In this document: piece after piece, positions 1,015 to 20,836 of the stretch | Position numbering within the stretch: the first letter of the stretch is position 1 | How the letters are laid out: each line of letters begins with the position of its first letter | Source: a virus | DNA: 64,000 nt | Reading direction: 5' to 3' (one strand) | Virus record (IMG/VR): IMGVR_UViG_3300044825_001871 | Coordinates: 92,236-156,235 of that record | The notes under the pieces: model-generated | Databases searched by the model: none | What the model saw: the letters and a program-made list of their open reading frames with translations, nothing else | What the model was told of the DNA's origin: nothing | Made by a program: the position numbers and the translations under genes

Positions 1015-2037
1015 ATGGACGCACAAGAACTTCGCAATCTTCAAGAAGCATATATTGAGGTTTACCAGAATCTTGATGAGGAAGGTGCAACTTCTAAAAG
1101 ATTGGCAGATGTTGCTGATGACAGAATTGGAGATTTGCCACGAACACATCATATTCATCATCGTAGAGGAACAGCTTCTTTAAGAACTTTGTCGAATTTG
1201 CATTTTAATGCAAAAGAGAGAGCACAAGGTAGATACCCTGAGAAATCAGGTCTTAGAAGGGGTGCTGGTGGGGCAGGAGTTCCAGATAGACCAGGAGATT
1301 CTGTAACATCTCTACGAGATACTCGTAGAGGTGCAGCACGCAAACTGCTTGACCTAGAGGCAAATAGAAAAAAACCATTAACCCCAAGTGAACGTCCAAT
1401 ACCTATTAGAAGCAGACCAACTCCTCCCACAAGTGGACCAACTAGTAGAACAAAAACTCCATTAACACCAAAAACTAGAGACGAAAGAGCAGCAGCAGCA
1501 GGATTCAAAGGTCAAGGATCTCTTCCAAAAGGTAAAAAACTCTATAGACAAACTGCTCGTGGTGTTACAACTGGAGATGATCCAATGAAAGTATTACAGT
1601 CAGCAGCACAGCAAAAAGAACATTATGACCTCTACGACATCATCCTCTCACACCTTCTTGATGAGGGATATGCAGAAACCGTCGAAGCAGCAGAAGTAAT
1701 GATGGTGAATATGAGTGAAGAGTGGAGAGAGAATATTATGATTGCTGAAGGAATGACTATGAAAGACTTCAAGGCAAATCGTCGGAAAAATAAAAGAAGA
1801 GATGCTTCTGCTGATGCTGTGAAGAGAGGTCACGTAGGTAAGGAATGGTATAACAGTGGTAGAAGATATTCTCCAGATGAAGCAAAGAGAATGCGTTCAA
1901 ACCTGGATGATGAAGAAAGACGTACAAGACATCGTAGTGCTGTAGATCCTGATAATGAGAATGATGATAACTTCTCTGCAGACAAGACGAAGAACCCCAA
2001 GAAACTTCGTAAGCAAAAAGCAATGGGTGAACACTGA
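1015..2037 (+). CDS. Putative capsid-targeted internal (cargo) protein
   Basis: 340 residues, very basic and low in complexity in the middle (Pro, Arg, Thr rich, about 85-190). The N-terminus reads LRNLQE followed by AY, which resembles the capsid-targeting peptides of T4 internal proteins with their L/I-x-E gp21 protease site. Residues about 203-240 carry a helical module DIILSHLLDEGYA...VNMSEEW that recurs in the protein at 15494. The last residues are Lys/Arg rich and end KKLRKQKAMGEH. No enzyme domain is recognised. A late promoter and the CTS-like start suggest a virion protein; packaging is inference. Confidence 0.7.
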   Translation: MDAQELRNLQEAYIEVYQNLDEEGATSKRLADVADDRIGDLPRTHHIHHRRGTASLRTLSNLHFNAKERAQGRYPEKSGLRRGAGGAGVPDRPGDSVTSLRDTRRGAARKLLDLEANRKKPLTPSERPIPIRSRPTPPTSGPTSRTKTPLTPKTRDERAAAAGFKGQGSLPKGKKLYRQTARGVTTGDDPMKVLQSAAQQKEHYDLYDIILSHLLDEGYAETVEAAEVMMVNMSEEWRENIMIAEGMTMKDFKANRRKNKRRDASADAVKRGHVGKEWYNSGRRYSPDEAKRMRSNLDDEERRTRHRSAVDPDNENDDNFSADKTKNPKKLRKQKAMGEH

Positions 2038-12095: not shown

Positions 12096-13090
12096 AGGAT
12101 ATTGTAAAAGAGATTGGTGATGATTTCACTAAATTGGCATCAGATATTGATGAAACGGAAACTTATGTTGATACAGGTTCGTACATTTTTAATGCACTGG
12201 TTTCAGGTAGCATATTTGGTGGTGTATCTGGCAATAAGATTACTGCTATTGCTGGAGAGTCTAGTACTGGAAAAACTTTCTTCAGCCTCGCCGTTGTTAA
12301 GAATTTTCTTGATACCAATCCCGATGGTTATTGTCTCTATTTTGATACTGAAGCCGCTATTACTAAATCACTTGTAGAATCCCGTGGAATTGATACTTCT
12401 CGTCTGGTTGTTGTTAACGTTGTTACTATTGAAGAGTTTCGTACTAAGGCGCTCAAAGCAGTAGACTTATACTTAAAAAAACCTGTAGAAGAACGCAAAC
12501 CTTGTATGTTTGTGTTAGACTCTCTGGGAATGCTTTCCACAGAGAAAGAAATCACTGATGCACTCAACGATAAGCAAGTTCGTGATATGACTAAATCGCA
12601 ACTTGTTAAGGGTGCTTTCCGAATGTTAACTCTTAAGCTAGGTCAAGCAAATGTTCCACTCATTGTCACAAATCATACATACGATGTCATCGGAGCTTAC
12701 GTACCAACGAAAGAAATGGGGGGAGGTTCTGGACTCAAATACGCAGCGTCTACGATCATCTATCTCAGCAAGAAAAAAGAAAAAGATGGAACGGAAGTGG
12801 TTGGAAACATTATCAAAGCTAAGACTGCTAAATCGCGTTTGAGTAAGGAGAACAAAGATGTTGAAGTCCGTCTGTATTATGATGAGCGCGGTCTTGATCG
12901 TTACTATGGTCTTCTGGAACTTGGTGAGATTGGTGGACTCTGGAAGAATGTAGCAGGACGCTATGAGATTGATGGTAAGAAACTTTATGCTAAACAGATT
13001 CTAAAAGAACCTGAAGTATATTTCACTGAAGAAGTGATGCAACAATTGGACGAAATCGCACGTAAGGAATTTAGTTATGGAGAAAGTTGA
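12083..13090 (+). CDS. uvsX: UvsX RecA-like recombinase
   Basis: 335 residues. Walker A is GESSTGKTF (about 58-66), Walker B is [11 protein letters not shown] (about 141-151), and the RecA-type region [19 protein letters not shown] follows. UvsX forms filaments on single-stranded DNA for recombination-dependent replication and repair. The length is shorter than T4 UvsX (about 390) but normal for cyanophages. It overlaps gene 41 by 14 nt. Confidence 0.93.
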
Positions 13091-14453
13091 GTTTCTAATC
13101 CTTAGAAACCTTTTACACAATGAAAAATATATTAGGAAAGTAATACCCTTTATTAAATCTGAATATTTTGAAGATCAAAATCAAAAAATTGTATTTGAAG
13201 AAATATTATCTTTTGTCCAAGAATATAATCAACCTGCAACAAAAGAAGTTCTCTGCATTGAGGTAGAAAAAAGAACAGATATTAACGAGCAGTCTTTTAA
13301 AGAAATCTCTCAAATTATTTCTTGTCTTGAAGATGTTCCCGCTGAGTTTAATTGGTTAATTGATACTACTGAAAAGTGGTGTAGAGATCGTGCCATTTAT
13401 TTGGCACTTATGGAGTCTATTCATATTGCAGATGGAAATGACGAAAAGAAGAATCGTGACAGCATTCCTTCTATTCTTTCTGATGCTCTTGCTGTAAGTT
13501 TTGATAATCATGTCGGTCATGATTATCTCCAAGACTACGAACAAAGATATGAGTCTTATCACAAAAAGGAGGATAAAATTGAATTTGATCTTGAATACTT
13601 TAACAAAATCACGAAAGGTGGTCTCCCTAACAAAACTCTTAACATCGCTCTTGCTGGTACGGGCGTCGGCAAGTCTCTATTCATGTGCCATGTGGCTAGC
13701 TCCGTCTTGCTCCAAGGGAGGAACGTTCTGTACATTACGCTGGAAATGGCAGAAGAACGCATTGCTGAAAGAATTGACGCAAACCTCTTGAATGTTCCCA
13801 TTCAAGATATTGTAGATCTTCCTAAGCAGATGTTTGAAAACAAGGTAACGAACCTTTCAAAGAAAACTCAAGGAACCTTAATTATTAAAGAGTATCCAAC
13901 TGCTTCCGCACATGCCGGACATTTTAAAGCGTTGTTGAATGAACTTGCACTTAAGAAATCATTCAGACCAGATATTATCTTTATTGACTACCTTAATATT
14001 TGTTCTTCTTCTAGGTATCGCGGCAATTCAAATATTAACTCTTACACTTTCGTGAAAGCAATCGCAGAAGAACTTCGTGGTCTTGCTGTAGAATTTAGTG
14101 TTCCTATTGTAAGTGCCACTCAGACCACTCGTTCCGGTTATGGTTCCTCTGATGTTGAACTAACTGATACCTCTGAGTCTTTCGGTCTTCCTGCAACTGC
14201 AGACTTAATGTTTGCTCTGATTTCCACAGAGGAACTTGAGGGTCTCGGGCAAATTTTAGTCAAGCAACTTAAGAATCGTTATAATGATCCAACCATTCAT
14301 AAGCGATTTGTTGTTGGTATTGACCGTGCCAAAATGCGTCTTTATGACTGCGAACAATCTGCTCAACAAGATATCCTTGACAATGGAAAGGATGAAGAGT
14401 ATGATTATGAAGAAAAGAAACCAAAGAAAACATTTGAAGGATTTAAATTCTAA
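13077..14453 (+). CDS. 41: Replicative DNA helicase gp41 (DnaB family)
   Basis: 458 residues. The N-terminal helical domain covers about 1-165. The RecA-like motor has Walker A AGTGVGKS (about 194-201), Walker [10 protein letters not shown], and the DnaB H4-like SATQTTRSG region near 345. The C-terminus is acidic and Lys-rich. It unwinds the fork and recruits gp61 primase. Confidence 0.95.
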
Positions 14454-14857
14454 TGACTATTGACCTTAAAAAATACGTTGACTTTGTTGATGCAACTACG
14501 TCAAATCCTAGCAAACAATATAGTGATTTTCTCACACGTCTCCACAGTCTTGAAGTGGAGGGATTTCCTACCGAGCGACTGCTTACTGCTGCTGTAGGAA
14601 TGTCTGCAGAAGCAGGTGAGTTTACTGAGATTGTAAAGAAAATGGTCTTTCAAGGTAAACCAGTAAATGAAGAAAATCTGTTTCACCTAAAGCGTGAACT
14701 TGGTGATATTATGTGGTATGTTTCTCAAGCGTGTATTGGACTTGATATTTCTCTTGAAGAAGTAATCCAAATGAACTTTGAGAAACTAAGTGCCCGTTAT
14801 CCTGAAGGTGCATTTAGTATTGAACGTTCTGAAAATCGTAAGGAGGGAGATCTGTGA
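14453..14857 (+). CDS. mazG: MazG-like NTP pyrophosphohydrolase
   Basis: 134 residues. The MazG signature ExxE...ExxD is visible: AEAGEFTEIVKK (about 54-65) and KRELGDIMWYV (about 83-93). Cyanophage MazG is usually proposed to act on (d)NTPs or (p)ppGpp to shape host metabolism; the substrate is debated. It overlaps gene 41 by 1 nt and the next gene by 4 nt, so it is in the replication operon. Confidence 0.88.
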   Translation: MTIDLKKYVDFVDATTSNPSKQYSDFLTRLHSLEVEGFPTERLLTAAVGMSAEAGEFTEIVKKMVFQGKPVNEENLFHLKRELGDIMWYVSQACIGLDISLEEVIQMNFEKLSARYPEGAFSIERSENRKEGDL

Positions 14858-15039
14858 CTAAAGAAAAGCAAGTAACAATCAAAATGGATGCTCGCACAGC
14901 AGCAGCAGTTCGCCAAGTTCTGTTTGATTCACAAAAAGGATATACTTACAATGAGGAAAGTGTTCCTCCTCGTATTGATGACATTCGTGGAGTGATCCAA
15001 CAACTTGATGATAACATTGGTGCTGTTCTTGGTGCTTAA
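14854..15039 (+). CDS. Small conserved hypothetical protein
   Basis: 61 residues, GTG start coupled to mazG by a 4-nt overlap and preceded by GGAGG. The first residues, MTKEKQVTIKMDARTAAAV, are amphipathic. The middle (YTYNEESVPPRID) and a helical C-terminus give no clear family. Confidence 0.7.
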   Translation: MTKEKQVTIKMDARTAAAVRQVLFDSQKGYTYNEESVPPRIDDIRGVIQQLDDNIGAVLGA

Positions 15040-15055
15040 ATAAATATTTTAAAAA

Positions 15056-15454
15056 ATGTCTTTAATTGGAAAAAGAAAAGGAAGACCAACTACAAAATAT
15101 CAGTTTGAGTTAATTTTAAAAAAGTTTTTGGTCTTTTTAAAAAGAGAACTTAAATTTAATTATAATATTCCAATTATTCTTGTGGATGATGTTGATTTTT
15201 CTAAAAACAATAAAACATTTGGTATAATGTATCCAGATAAAATTGTTATTAGTATTGTCAATCGTCATCCTATAGATATTTTAAGAACAGTAGCACACGA
15301 ATATATTCACCATAAGCAACAAAGTGAAGGTAAAAAACTAAATGGAAATGCAGGAAGTTCCAGTGAAAATGAAGCAAATGCAAAGGCGGGTGAGATAATA
15401 AGAAAATATGGAAATCTTCATCCAGAGTTATTTGACCTAATACCTATTAGATAA
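15056..15454 (+). CDS. Zincin-like metalloprotease candidate
   Basis: 132 residues. A zinc-binding HEYIH (HExxH) is at about 82-86 within RTVAHEYIHHKQQ. A possible third ligand is the Glu of SENEANAKAG about 22 residues later. The N-terminus is basic (GKRKGRPTTKYQ). Small HExxH proteins occur in many phages and may process virion or host proteins. No signal peptide is seen, so it should act in the cytoplasm or in the virion. It opens the accessory block after mazG. Confidence 0.75.
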   Translation: MSLIGKRKGRPTTKYQFELILKKFLVFLKRELKFNYNIPIILVDDVDFSKNNKTFGIMYPDKIVISIVNRHPIDILRTVAHEYIHHKQQSEGKKLNGNAGSSSENEANAKAGEIIRKYGNLHPELFDLIPIR

Positions 15455-15462
15455 TTTGTTTT

Positions 15463-15470
15463 TATAAATA
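15463..15470 (+). promoter_or_regulatory. T4-type late promoter TATAAATA
   Basis: An exact octamer 23 nt before the gene at 15494, embedded in the same block of about 25 nt that precedes the gene at 1015. Confidence 0.8.
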
Positions 15471-15493
15471 ACTAAAAAGTATTTGTAAAAAAA

Positions 15494-16213
15494 ATGTCTA
15501 GACTCACTGGAAATGATGCATATGGTCTGATGGAAGCATATTCTGCTGTTTATCAACCAAGACTAGAATTGACTGAGGAAGAAATTTGGGAAGAAGTTGA
15601 AAACTTTGTAAATGAACTCATAGAGGAAGGATATGATCTGAGTGAGTATACTTGGGAAGATATGTATGAAGCATATATCGAAGAGGCAAGAGCAGAAGGT
15701 GTAAAACCTTATAAACCACAGCCATTAAAACCATTACCTCAAGCAAAACCACTTTCTGGACAGAGGGGTGATGGAAGTGGATATAAAGATCGTACTGGAA
15801 AAACAGAAGGGCCTCTTATTACAGTAAATCCAGGAAATCCAGAAGAAGCAAGAAAAGCTTTAGAAAAAACTAAACAAAAACCACATACAAGAACTGGAAA
15901 CCCAACTAGGATTATGAGCCCTAATCTTTCTACCACTAGAGAGGTTGATGCTGTTCGTGGAATGGTTCAAGGTAAAGCGATCAATAATCCAACAGCATCT
16001 AGTTTGCCTAAAGGGTCATCGGCAAAACCAAAACTTTCTAGAGAAATTATAAGAAGACCTCAAGCAGAGGAAGTAGATGTATATGATGTTATTCTTTCTC
16101 ACTTGCTTGATGAAGGATATGCAAGTTCTGTAGATGCTGCAGAAGCAATTATGGTTAATATGAGTGAAGATTGGAGAGATATTATTATTGAAGAAATCCT
16201 TGGTGAAGCATAG
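15494..16213 (+). CDS. Putative capsid-targeted internal protein, ends at an amber codon before a conserved tail
   Basis: 239 residues. The CTS-like N-terminus reads AYGLME then AYSAVYQ, giving an L-x-E/A cleavage site as in T4 internal proteins. The LDEGY-type helical module occurs at the C-terminus (YDVILSHLLDEGYA, about 197-210, then VNMSEDW), with a more divergent copy (NELIEEGYDLSEY) at about 37-49. The middle is basic and Pro/Lys rich. The frame ends at a UAG (16211-16213) although the same frame continues with the conserved tail seen in the protein at 1015. A late promoter precedes it. Virion packaging is inference. Confidence 0.72.
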   Translation: MSRLTGNDAYGLMEAYSAVYQPRLELTEEEIWEEVENFVNELIEEGYDLSEYTWEDMYEAYIEEARAEGVKPYKPQPLKPLPQAKPLSGQRGDGSGYKDRTGKTEGPLITVNPGNPEEARKALEKTKQKPHTRTGNPTRIMSPNLSTTREVDAVRGMVQGKAINNPTASSLPKGSSAKPKLSREIIRRPQAEEVDVYDVILSHLLDEGYASSVDAAEAIMVNMSEDWRDIIIEEILGEA

Positions 16214-16282
16214 GGTCTTGGTGGCGTAACCAAGAATCCTAAGAAACTCCGTAAGCAAAAAGCAATGGGTGAGCACGGTTGA
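16214..16282 (+). other. In-frame continuation after the UAG: conserved KKLRKQKAMGEH tail
   Basis: Directly after the amber stop the same frame encodes 22 codons, GLGGVTKNPKKLRKQKAMGE..., then UGA. The protein at 1015 ends with the same KNPKKLRKQKAMGEH in normal frame, and the DNA is nearly identical over this part. It is either a readthrough extension or a recently truncated tail. Confidence 0.7.
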
Positions 16283-16307
16283 AAATCTAAATTATAAAAT
16301 TTATTGA

Positions 16308-16347
16308 CCCCCTCTTTCTAAATATAAGAAAGAGGGGGGATTTTTTT
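16308..16347 (+). terminator. Strong 12-bp terminator directly before the next start codon
   Basis: Perfect stem CCCCCTCTTTCT / AGAAAGAGGGGG (16308-16319 and 16327-16338) followed by seven T. The ATG of the next gene follows the T-run at once, and the only ribosome-site-like sequence (GAGGGGGGA) lies in the right arm. Confidence 0.9.
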
Positions 16348-17031
16348 ATGTTTGCTCTAAGAGGATTTCAATATGAAAAAAGTATTTTTAACATGTTGAT
16401 GCAAAATAATCTGACGGAACAAAGGTATAGCCCTGCGGCAAGTTCCCACGAATCAGACACTGCATTTAAAATTAAAAATAAAGTTTATAATTTAGAAGTT
16501 AAATTAGACCTAAACGCAGATTTTGGGCAAGGAACTTTAAGATATGATATCGATAATAAAACCTGGGTTACTTATTCTGACAATCGATCTATGAAAAAAA
16601 TATTAGACTTTTTTGAAGTTGCTGATTTTGCGAATGAATCTTGGAAAGGGGTAATTCCATATAGTAACTATAAACACGTTGACATTTATAAAAAAAGACC
16701 TCCTCAAAAAAGATTGTTACCACATGAAGATCTTTCGGATAGGAGAAATTTTACAGATAATTACAAAAAATTAACTGGAAATCCAATAGCAGATTATTAC
16801 AACAGCAAAGACGTGTATTATATTCAAATAGGAAAAAATAAAGGATTTTATTATATGGGGAAAGATATTGCTAATTTAGGAGTTCCCGAATTCAATCCAA
16901 CAGAGCAAAAAATAAGAATAAGAAGAAAAGAAGGTAGGTTTACTACTGCTATTCTTATAAGCACAAATGTCCCAAGCTCTTTATATAACTTAGATTATAA
17001 TGCAATATTTTTGATCAATAAAAATAAATAA
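16348..17031 (+). CDS. Hypothetical protein, possible PD-(D/E)XK nuclease
   Basis: 227 residues. Near residues 30-55 it shows SHESDTAFKIKNKVYNLEVK: an acidic residue, then a strand carrying E-x-K, the arrangement of a PD-(D/E)XK nuclease core. The Lys-rich remainder (KKRPPQKR, RIRRKEGRF) fits DNA binding. This fold guess is weak. The gene is AT-rich and has no ribosome site except one in the terminator stem, so its expression may be limited to transcripts that escape that hairpin. Confidence 0.6.
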   Translation: MFALRGFQYEKSIFNMLMQNNLTEQRYSPAASSHESDTAFKIKNKVYNLEVKLDLNADFGQGTLRYDIDNKTWVTYSDNRSMKKILDFFEVADFANESWKGVIPYSNYKHVDIYKKRPPQKRLLPHEDLSDRRNFTDNYKKLTGNPIADYYNSKDVYYIQIGKNKGFYYMGKDIANLGVPEFNPTEQKIRIRRKEGRFTTAILISTNVPSSLYNLDYNAIFLINKNK

Positions 17032-17051: not shown

Positions 17052-18338
17052 ATGAAGAAATTTTCCCAATTTATATTAGAAGCAAAAGAAACCAGAGCCT
17101 CCGAGCAAGCAAAAAAGCTTGGTCTGGTTGGTGATGGTCATGGGGATTGGTATAATTCTCAGGGAGAATTTGTTGCTAAAACTGTAGACGGGCAACTCAA
17201 ATTCTTTAATCAAGGACAGAGAGTGGGACAGAGAGATATTCCTCCAAAACCAGGCAAAGGAAGAGGAGCAGCAACAGCACAACAGCAAATTTCTCCTCAA
17301 CAATCTCAGGGACAGCAAATTTCTCCCCAAAGAATACCTATCGGACAAGAAGATCAAATGCCTGCTGATGATGAGTTTTTGACTATTGTTCTTGCCAAAT
17401 TTAATCCACCATCAAAGGAACATAAGAAGTTATTTACTGCAGCAAAAAGAGTTTCTTTAGGTGGAGAAGTAAGGATATATCCCTCACAAATACAAGATAA
17501 TAAAAAAAATCCATTAAGTGTGAATAGAAAGGTATATTATTTGAAAACAATGTTTCCAGAAATTAAAGATGATATCGTAAACAACCCAGAAATTAGAACT
17601 ATATTTGATGTTCTAATTGCCGCAAATGAAGATGGATATTCGAATGTAAATATTGTGGTTGGATCTGATCGCCAAGCTGAAATTCAAAATTTAGCAAATA
17701 AACATAATGGGAAATTTTATCAGTATAATGAAATAAAAGTAATTCCTACTGGAACATTTGATTCTGAGAAAGATGTTTCTGGCATTTCTTCTGGTATGAT
17801 GAGAAAGACTGCTGCTGATAATAATTTTAGAGAATTTAAAAGAGCAGTCCCTAAAACTATTGATGATGTTGATGCTAGAAAATTGTTTAATGAACTTAGA
17901 AAGGCAATGGGATTTAAAGAAAATGTTAAAGAAAATTATAATCTTTGGGAAATCGCTCCAGAATTAGATTTTAAAAATCTGAGGGAAAATTATATTCAGA
18001 ACAAAATTTTTAAAATAGGTGATATTGTTGAAAATATGAATACTGGATTAGTTGGTAAAGTTATGCGTAGGGGCACAAATTATTTAATTTGTGTTACCGA
18101 AAATGATGTTATGTTTAAATCTTGGATAAAAGACCTTGTTGAATATAGTGAAGTTAAAATGGATAAAATGTATAGAGAATCTGGGAAACCAAATACTCTT
18201 GTTGGTACAACTGGATATCTTAAGTATGCAGTTAAACAAACTCCAGGAGCTACTTTAGGAAAAGAAAATCTTCAACCTAAAGGTAAGGCATTTCTAAATT
18301 TCATAAATAAGTATAGAAAAAGTAAAGTAAGTGCTTAA
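17052..18338 (+). CDS. Capsid-targeted protein with nucleotidyltransferase-like domain
   Basis: 428 residues. Residues 1-11, MKKFSQFILEA, closely match the T4 internal-protein targeting peptide (MKTYQEFIAEA) with an I/L-x-E/A protease site. Next come a GDGHGDWYNSQGEFVAK module and a Gln-rich linker (about 73-100). A cytidylyltransferase-like domain covers about 108-285: TIVLAKFNPPSKEHKKLF, NIVVGSDRQAE and ISSGMMRK. The family HxGH motif is reduced to PSKEH. A KOW/SH3-like module (GDIVENMNTGLVGKVMRRG) follows at about 323. Probably an enzyme packaged in the head and injected; substrate unknown. Confidence 0.75.
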   Translation: MKKFSQFILEAKETRASEQAKKLGLVGDGHGDWYNSQGEFVAKTVDGQLKFFNQGQRVGQRDIPPKPGKGRGAATAQQQISPQQSQGQQISPQRIPIGQEDQMPADDEFLTIVLAKFNPPSKEHKKLFTAAKRVSLGGEVRIYPSQIQDNKKNPLSVNRKVYYLKTMFPEIKDDIVNNPEIRTIFDVLIAANEDGYSNVNIVVGSDRQAEIQNLANKHNGKFYQYNEIKVIPTGTFDSEKDVSGISSGMMRKTAADNNFREFKRAVPKTIDDVDARKLFNELRKAMGFKENVKENYNLWEIAPELDFKNLRENYIQNKIFKIGDIVENMNTGLVGKVMRRGTNYLICVTENDVMFKSWIKDLVEYSEVKMDKMYRESGKPNTLVGTTGYLKYAVKQTPGATLGKENLQPKGKAFLNFINKYRKSKVSA

Positions 18339-18343
18339 TTACG

Positions 18344-20836
18344 ATGTCTATTAATCCCCTGAATGATATTTCTAGAGTCTATCTAGAACAGGTTGCAATT
18401 AAGGAAGCAGTCGATCAAGATACTGATGGAGATACTGATTTTGCTGATGTTAGAATTGCTAGGATGATAGCATCTGGTGTTCCTAGAGAAGTTGCAATAC
18501 AAAAAACGAGAAATAAACCATACAATAAAAAAATAAAGTCAGTAAGGGAATCCCTGATTGGCAAACAGTCTGAAATTGATGCGAATAAGAATGGAAAAAT
18601 TGATTCCCAAGACTTTACAATCCTTCGTTCAACTAAAAAGAAAAGGCAAGTAAAAGAAGGTTTCTCAAATTGGAGAGAAGATCTGATTGAAATTGTAGAT
18701 AAAATTCCAAAAAATAAAAGTGAAGATGTAAGAATTACTGATAAGAAAGTTGATAATAAAATTGATATTAATCCAAGACTTGATCTTGGAGAAGCAGTAG
18801 AAAGTCTTGGCGGAACTCTTATTGAGATGATTGAAATTGATGAAGTAGATTATATTGTTGAAAGTGTTTATGAAGAATTGCTTGGGGAAGGATATGAAGA
18901 GGATGATATTGAGGAAGCACTTGAGTATGCTTTAGTTGAAGCAAAAGTAACTTTCGGACACGATACTTCTGAAACAAAAAAGAAAAAGGGAAGAAATCTT
19001 TTAGGTGCTGTTGGAAGACTTGCAAGACAAAAACTGTCTTCTAAATATCGTGGTGCTAAAAAAGCAGTAAGTTCAGCAGCTGTTAGTGGATTAAGAAACG
19101 TTGCTAGAGGAGCATTAGGTGCTGCTCGTAAATTAGAGGGAGACAAAAAACCAAGCCCAGTTCATTCGCGAGCAGGGACAAGATCGCCTTCGGTGCATCG
19201 CGGTGCTGGAGTTGGACAAAGAGAAAGAGTAAGCAGTGGATCTTATTCTGCCCCAAAACCAGAAGCACCAAAACCATCAGCAAAACCAGAACAAAGAAAA
19301 GCATCAACTCCAGTTTCTGATCCTTGGGAGGGATCTTATACATCCCAATCAAAAAAACCATCACCAAAACCTCAGGCAAAGACAACCAAAGTTCCTGCAA
19401 AAACTTCAGAACCGGCACCAGCACAAGGATTGAGTGCTAAACAAAAGGCAGCAGCCATAAGAGCACAACGTAGAAACATAAATATATCACCAGAAGATCT
19501 TCAGAGAGTTATTAGTAACGTAAAAGAAGATTACTGGAGTACTGTTGCTAAAGCATATAAGGAAAAATATGAATTACTTGAAAAAGCGGAAAGTGAGCAA
19601 CAACAAAAACTTTTCGGTCTTGCTCTTTCTGTAAAAAGAGGACAAACTTCAAGAGATAAGGTAAGTGATAGAGTTCTTGAAATTGTTGATAGTATGAGTG
19701 AGAAAAAAATTCGTGACTTTGCTAAAACTCCCCATAAAGGACTTCCTCATAAAATTGAAACAAAGGAAGAAGCAATAAGACAGGAATTTATTGCCCGAAT
19801 GGTGAGTAAAATTGAAGAGCAAAGTGGAGTTTATGTTGATGAAGAAAAACTTCAAAGTTCAATGAAGAAAGGTAAAAAAAAACTAGAAAGCAATACCCAA
19901 GTTTTTCACGATGTAGATGATAATCTTGTAGATCAGAGACATCCTGATGCTGCAAAAATTGATGTGATGAGAAAAACTGGCGGTGAGTGGAAAAGAGTAC
20001 AATCATTAACACCTAGTCAGTTTGCTCATCATAGACTAAGAAAACCTGGAGAACCTGTAAAGAAAGAAAATGATCCCGGTGATAAGTATGGGTTTAACCA
20101 GTTTAGAGACACTGAAAAATTCAAAAAAACAACAAAACCAAATAAACCAGTAGTTAGATTGGGAGATAGTTCAAGAAGACCAGCACAAAAAGAAGTTGTG
20201 ACTGCTCGTGGCGGATCTAAATTTGGAAGTAAAAAACCAAGCACCCCTATGGATAACCCTGGGGAATTTGCTAAAGATTTGAAAACTAGAATTGGTGTAA
20301 AAAATCTTGAAAGAAAGAACGTCCATTTTACTGGCGGAATGCGTAAGGGATCTGGACCTGAGAAAAAGGCTGAGGTTGTTAAAAAAATTGTGAAACCTGA
20401 TGTTAAGAAAGTCATTGCAACTGATGATCACTTACAGAATGTAAGACATATGGCAGCAGCGGCATCTGAGGTAGCACCTAAGGCAAAAGTTAGAGCATAT
20501 CAATCAAAACCTGCTACAAAAGCAAAAGGTAAAGTGAGGTCTGGTGATATTGTTCCGGTAAGAGTTGGTAAGGAAAGTGATTTGAATGATCCTAAAATTG
20601 GAATTAGAAAAAATACTTCTCCTTCAGGGTCACCAAAAGAAACACAAAGAAGAAGAAAGCAACAAAAGATGGGTGAAGCAGTTGATCTAAATCAACCCCA
20701 AGAGAAACCCCAAAATCCATCTGCGGTCAATCAAGTTTTACAAGCAAAAATAAAAGCAGATTCTGCAAAAAAAGAATTTGCCACCAAACAAAGAATGGCG
20801 GCACAAAAGGGCGTTGATTTATCTTCAATTTCCTAA
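18344..20836 (+). CDS. Large internal/structural protein with EF-hand-like loops and HAD phosphatase-like domain
   Basis: 830 residues, only 5 nt after the preceding gene. The N-terminus has an IKE/AV site that could be a capsid-targeting cleavage point. Two Ca-binding-type loops occur: DQDTDGDTDF (about 25-34) and DANKNGKIDSQDF (about 79-91). An LDEGY-like helical module (YEELLGEGYEEDD) is near 176. A long Pro/Lys/Ser-rich linker covers about 260-380. A HAD-like domain lies at about 520-700 with FHDVDDNLV (motif I), VHFTGG (motif II), a following Lys, and IATDDHLQNV (motif III). The C-terminus has RRRKQQKMGEA, like the tail of the related proteins. Likely a virion cargo protein. Confidence 0.72.
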   Translation: MSINPLNDISRVYLEQVAIKEAVDQDTDGDTDFADVRIARMIASGVPREVAIQKTRNKPYNKKIKSVRESLIGKQSEIDANKNGKIDSQDFTILRSTKKKRQVKEGFSNWREDLIEIVDKIPKNKSEDVRITDKKVDNKIDINPRLDLGEAVESLGGTLIEMIEIDEVDYIVESVYEELLGEGYEEDDIEEALEYALVEAKVTFGHDTSETKKKKGRNLLGAVGRLARQKLSSKYRGAKKAVSSAAVSGLRNVARGALGAARKLEGDKKPSPVHSRAGTRSPSVHRGAGVGQRERVSSGSYSAPKPEAPKPSAKPEQRKASTPVSDPWEGSYTSQSKKPSPKPQAKTTKVPAKTSEPAPAQGLSAKQKAAAIRAQRRNINISPEDLQRVISNVKEDYWSTVAKAYKEKYELLEKAESEQQQKLFGLALSVKRGQTSRDKVSDRVLEIVDSMSEKKIRDFAKTPHKGLPHKIETKEEAIRQEFIARMVSKIEEQSGVYVDEEKLQSSMKKGKKKLESNTQVFHDVDDNLVDQRHPDAAKIDVMRKTGGEWKRVQSLTPSQFAHHRLRKPGEPVKKENDPGDKYGFNQFRDTEKFKKTTKPNKPVVRLGDSSRRPAQKEVVTARGGSKFGSKKPSTPMDNPGEFAKDLKTRIGVKNLERKNVHFTGGMRKGSGPEKKAEVVKKIVKPDVKKVIATDDHLQNVRHMAAAASEVAPKAKVRAYQSKPATKAKGKVRSGDIVPVRVGKESDLNDPKIGIRKNTSPSGSPKETQRRRKQQKMGEAVDLNQPQEKPQNPSAVNQVLQAKIKADSAKKEFATKQRMAAQKGVDLSSIS

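Follow-up and report, generated by a model that had tools for sequence, protein, structure and literature searches.

The gene at 15494 and its surroundings

The DNA analysed here (64,000 nucleotides, called the window) makes up the 3' end of a virus record of 156 kb, which is a single contig. The virus is a T4-like cyanophage whose relatives include S-CREM1, S-SZBM1 and S-SRM01. The features at the locus and at its paralogue are as follows.

15463–15483, plus strand: T4-type late-promoter-like element TATAAATA with its flank, identical to 988–1008 upstream of the paralogue at 1015
15494–16213, plus strand: ORF of 239 residues for a late- or virion-type cyanophage protein, ending at UAG
16211–16213, plus strand: amber codon; L159, L092 and L131, the module copies nearest to the window, have GAG (Glu) here, and L001 has AAT (Asn)
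16214–16279, plus strand: putative relic, in frame, of the C-terminal module GxGGVTKNPKKLRKQKAMGEH(D/G), with UGA (16280–16282) after it
1990–2034, plus strand: the same module, translated as the C-terminus of the paralogous protein 1015–2037
16308–16345, plus strand: terminator-like hairpin with T-run, at the same place in L001, L178 and L221
16211–17024, plus strand: variable cassette of the C-terminal tail and the downstream ORF (16348–17031); L001 has an unrelated tail and ORF between near-identical flanks, and only the hairpin is common

The 15494 protein ends with EEILGEA just before TAG. Past the TAG, the same frame runs for 22 codons (GLGGVTKNPKKLRKQKAMGEHG) up to TGA. According to the profile comparison, the N-terminal part of the protein matches phrog_3708 (E = 1.2e-23), and phrog_22522 is also matched (E = 4.3e-6). 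A conserved C-terminal domain, DVYDVILSHLLDEGY...MVNMSEDW, is present, and this DIILSHLLDEGY...MVNMSE domain is found in dozens of cyanophage loci. As the N-terminal segment and the C-terminal domain both match, the protein fits a modular late protein family of cyanophages (phrog_3708/phrog_22522-like). No domain was detected in a Pfam search of the protein.

A cytidylyltransferase-like protein (phrog_395; 17052–18338) is encoded next to the locus. Its N-terminus is MKKFSQFILEA, which we presume to resemble T4 capsid-targeting peptides. A putative cytidylyltransferase was detected in the virions of the cyanophage S-SM1 (PMC3037559). We infer a virion or head-internal role for the 15494 protein.

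The exact 21-nt element upstream of both paralogues occurs twice in the window, against 0.04 occurrences expected, and TATAAATA by itself shows no enrichment in the window. The T4 late promoter is TATAAAT (PMC3037559), and such sharing of the element would be expected of a late promoter. On the 3' side, the terminator-like hairpin with its T-run (16308–16348) abuts the ATG of the next ORF. In L178 the hairpin is kept with paired changes (CTC/GAG to CTA/TAG). A G-rich arm could mask a ribosome-binding site.

The tail module

The module beyond the stop has the consensus G-x-G-[GST]-VTKNPKKLRKQKAMGE and occurs at internal or C-terminal positions of many late-type proteins of T4-like cyanophages. 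The original prediction that the in-frame codons after the UAG match the tail of the 1015 protein was confirmed: 41 nt of the tail match 1990–2030 with 3 mismatches, and shuffled sequences yielded 0 such matches. The match is far above chance. It had also been claimed that RKQQKMGEA ends the protein at 18344. This motif is actually located at about residue 775 of 830, and it is not the same module, its resemblance being partial and weaker.

Fifty-six distinct DNA versions of the module were compared, the window included. A stop at the codon before the first glycine is present in the window only (0 of the 55 others). The nearest versions, L159, L092 and L131, differ from the window at 2–3 positions in 60 nt, so that the divergence is small, and all three carry GAG at the position of the stop. 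The strongly conserved residues are all intact after the stop. Two residues of the window tail are unusual: a change from P to L is absent from all 55 other versions, and G occupies a position where all 11 of the MGEH copies have D.

The same module is present in SCREM1_219 of S-CREM1 and SSZBM1_194 of S-SZBM1 (93% and 88% DNA identity, respectively). The S-SRM01 proteins QPX48234.1 and QPX48196.1 and the S-CREM1 and S-SZBM1 proteins (Kyanoviridae) have the same module or the conserved domain, with parts of the phrog_3708/22522 type. In these hypothetical proteins of Kyanoviridae the module is translated, either internally or terminally, whereas in the window it lies behind a stop.

Relatives at the same locus

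The closest relative, L001, shows about 99% identity over 13000–16210 (about 3.2 kb). Beyond 16210 it is unrelated except for the hairpin, and similarity resumes at 17024–17025 (87%, for the rest of the contig). The L001 tail has about 104 residues of another kind, in sense from the first codon, and the downstream ORF is also different. An apparent internal duplication of about 50 residues was observed in this tail (L001 3718–4032; RAQRRSAARGMI...GPEGYLRH and RRRSEARDII...GPEGYLRH).

In L221 the gene is located at the same position in a syntenic stretch, with 85–93% identity in most of the aligned pieces. Its ORF is open throughout, EEILDEA-EGSYG...GSGSVTRNPKKLRKQRAMGEID followed by the stop, with about 100 codons that the window lacks separating the two parts. 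The 3' untranslated sequence and the hairpin are common to L221 and the window. Thus a relative with a sense codon at the site continues into the same tail, which is what a truncated allele with a relic tail requires.

In the syntenic L178, whose downstream protein is 58% identical, the family protein ends soon after the conserved domain and has no tail. About ten further members of the family stop directly after the domain, ending SI[IL]G. Because L178 and these members end right after the domain, the tail is dispensable, and a short form of the protein is tolerated. Four endings are therefore seen at one protein position: a short one, a long one carrying the module, a long one carrying a tail of another kind, and the cut one of the window.

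A separate observation concerns the helicase gene. In L212 (2044–5001) a split intein seems to have broken up a gp41/DnaB-like helicase gene. The N part comes first, then a GIY-YIG-like endonuclease that stands free, then a protein of the DIILSHLLDEGY domain family, and last the intein C part, which ends HN before SSSDVEL. The window helicase (13077–14453) is uninterrupted. Gaps in the BLAST alignments at window positions 13658 and 14141–14148 in L183, L184, L235, L246 and L254 suggest similar inserts.

The missing linker

More than 40 distinct linkers before the module begin with AEGSYG (DNA GAAGCAGAAGGTTCT or GAAGCAGAAGGTTC), and linkers other than that of L221 have 67–94 residues. Several linkers end at CAGAGGGTCCT. 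In other phages, the ends of EGPGG-type linkers form imperfect 11-nt direct repeats, CAGAAGGTTCT (EGS) and CAGAGGGTCCT (EGP), with 9 of 11 positions matching. In the window, EEILGEA passes directly to TAG-GLGGVTKNP, with about 100 codons fewer than in L221, and the joint reads CATAGGGTCTT. Both substitutions at the joint strengthen a quasi-palindrome, TAGGGTCTTGGT...ACCAAGAATCCTA (16205–16245), for which chance or template switching is possible.

Proposed origin of the amber codon

All the relatives seen have a sense codon at this position, the linker is missing in the window, and the 3' end is shared. The 15494 gene is most likely a truncated allele: its hypervariable C-terminus would recently have suffered a linker deletion and a nonsense change, which left an untranslated relic. 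The ancestor would have had ...EEILDEA, a linker of about 70–95 codons starting with EGSYG, and the module ...EGPGGVTKNPKKLRKQKAMGEHD with its stop, as in present relatives. The linker was probably lost by slippage between the imperfect repeats CAGAAGGTTCT and CAGAGGGTCCT, and the GAG left at the joint would have become TAG. Because the three closest versions carry GAG, the UAG looks most simply like GAG changed by one substitution. A slippage deletion and two substitutions would yield the window sequence. Ribosomes would then stop at the UAG, resulting in a 239-residue protein ending after the conserved domain, and the module 3' of the stop would be an untranslated relic, too young for decay.

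Some points count against this proposal. The conserved residues of the module are intact as if translated, though the divergence from the nearest copies is too small to reveal selection. Besides the deletion, the proposal requires two substitutions in the 11-nt joint, and QPGSGS precedes the module in L221, which is thus not the exact parent form. An intermediate allele, with the linker lost and the sense codon kept, was not found in a scan of viral contigs. Among known cases, phage alleles truncated by a nonsense change, and relics of phage genes, likewise have a stop in one lineage, sense codons in relatives and recognizable sequence on the 3' side, and the 15494 case differs from them in the loss of a linker just before the stop.

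Alternative explanations

The original prediction left programmed readthrough and a very recent truncation side by side. Truncation gained support from the sense codons of the relatives, the GAG of the nearest copies and the full-length L221; sense codons in relatives with UAG in this phage alone had been named beforehand as the sign of a simple mutation, and this is the pattern observed. If the readthrough were programmed, a few percent of ribosomes would insert an amino acid at the UAG and continue through the 22 residues of the module, so that a small share of the protein would carry the tail. The tail is indeed in frame with every strongly conserved residue retained, and the late-promoter-like element points to a gene of the virion type. 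The base at +4 is G; in E. coli and yeast, low readthrough goes with U at this position (PMC5289835). However, the stop is conserved in none of the 55 other versions, L001 and L221 are in sense, and GGU CUU after the UAG does not fit CARYYA. The absence of an amber-reading tRNA from the nine in the window was correctly predicted, and no CUA anticodon is present among all 11 tRNAs of the 156-kb record (two located elsewhere); a suppressor tRNA in the remainder of the record was accordingly rejected. The structure around the stop (16190–16285) is not significant against shuffles (z = −0.72), and 16205–16345 folds more strongly mainly through the terminator-like hairpin. A hairpin spanning the stop, TAGG.TCTTGGT/ACCAAGA.TCCTA, was considered as a stimulatory structure, yet it folds no better than shuffles; its pairing is improved by both joint substitutions, which may be chance. 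Because the linker between the domain and the module is also missing, even readthrough would fail to give back the protein in its usual, known form. We regard programmed readthrough as very improbable. An alternative code with TAG as an amino acid was also rejected: UAG ends 15 of the 159 ORFs of at least 80 residues, which is normal for a rare, ordinary stop, and after TAG-ended ORFs the next in-frame stop is mostly within 30 codons.

Programmed readthrough proteins include Q-beta A1 and the luteovirus readthrough protein. Both share with the window an in-frame stop and an in-frame extension, but in the window the stop is not conserved, no stimulatory element was found, and the extension is putative. 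Nothing relevant on readthrough in cyanophages was found in a literature search. Some leak at the 15494 UAG is possible, as at any UAG. It is very improbable that a small fraction of the protein copies still receives the basic KNPKKLRKQKAMGE module through a low level of readthrough in the cyanobacterial host; if so, a formerly fixed C-terminus would have become rare through the deletion and the stop.

The joint or the UAG might also be an artefact of metagenome assembly from mixed strains, or of sequencing. The UAG is seen in one metagenomic contig only, two unusual substitutions are located exactly at the joint, and this genome has the module at another place too. Neither the joint nor the same UAG was found in other records in the scan of viral contigs, a set that may omit near-identical records. 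Against this, the tail end, 3' untranslated sequence and hairpin match L221, the downstream ORF matches L178, and the gene order is the same in both; the joint is thus in a normal locus. In addition, an imperfect repeat of 11 nt would be too short for the usual assembly k-mers to collapse. An artefact is improbable. A recombination joint, at which a foreign tail end (AGGGTC...) was fused to ...GAAGCAT and the UAG was made in one step, with no earlier short allele in sense, is somewhat less improbable but still unlikely. The TAG straddles the joint, and the locus swaps whole cassettes of tail plus gene between near-identical flanks, as in the window and L001. However, the GAG of the nearest copies gives TAG by one substitution, and a foreign tail is unnecessary, L221 having the same 3' end in the same locus. 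Recombination is a variant of the truncated allele proposed above, with the same protein outcome.

Implications

A conserved in-frame tail past a stop may be a fresh relic, and such a tail alone is no evidence of readthrough. The four endings of one gene, in near-identical or syntenic loci, indicate that the C-termini of abundant cyanophage late proteins turn over fast.
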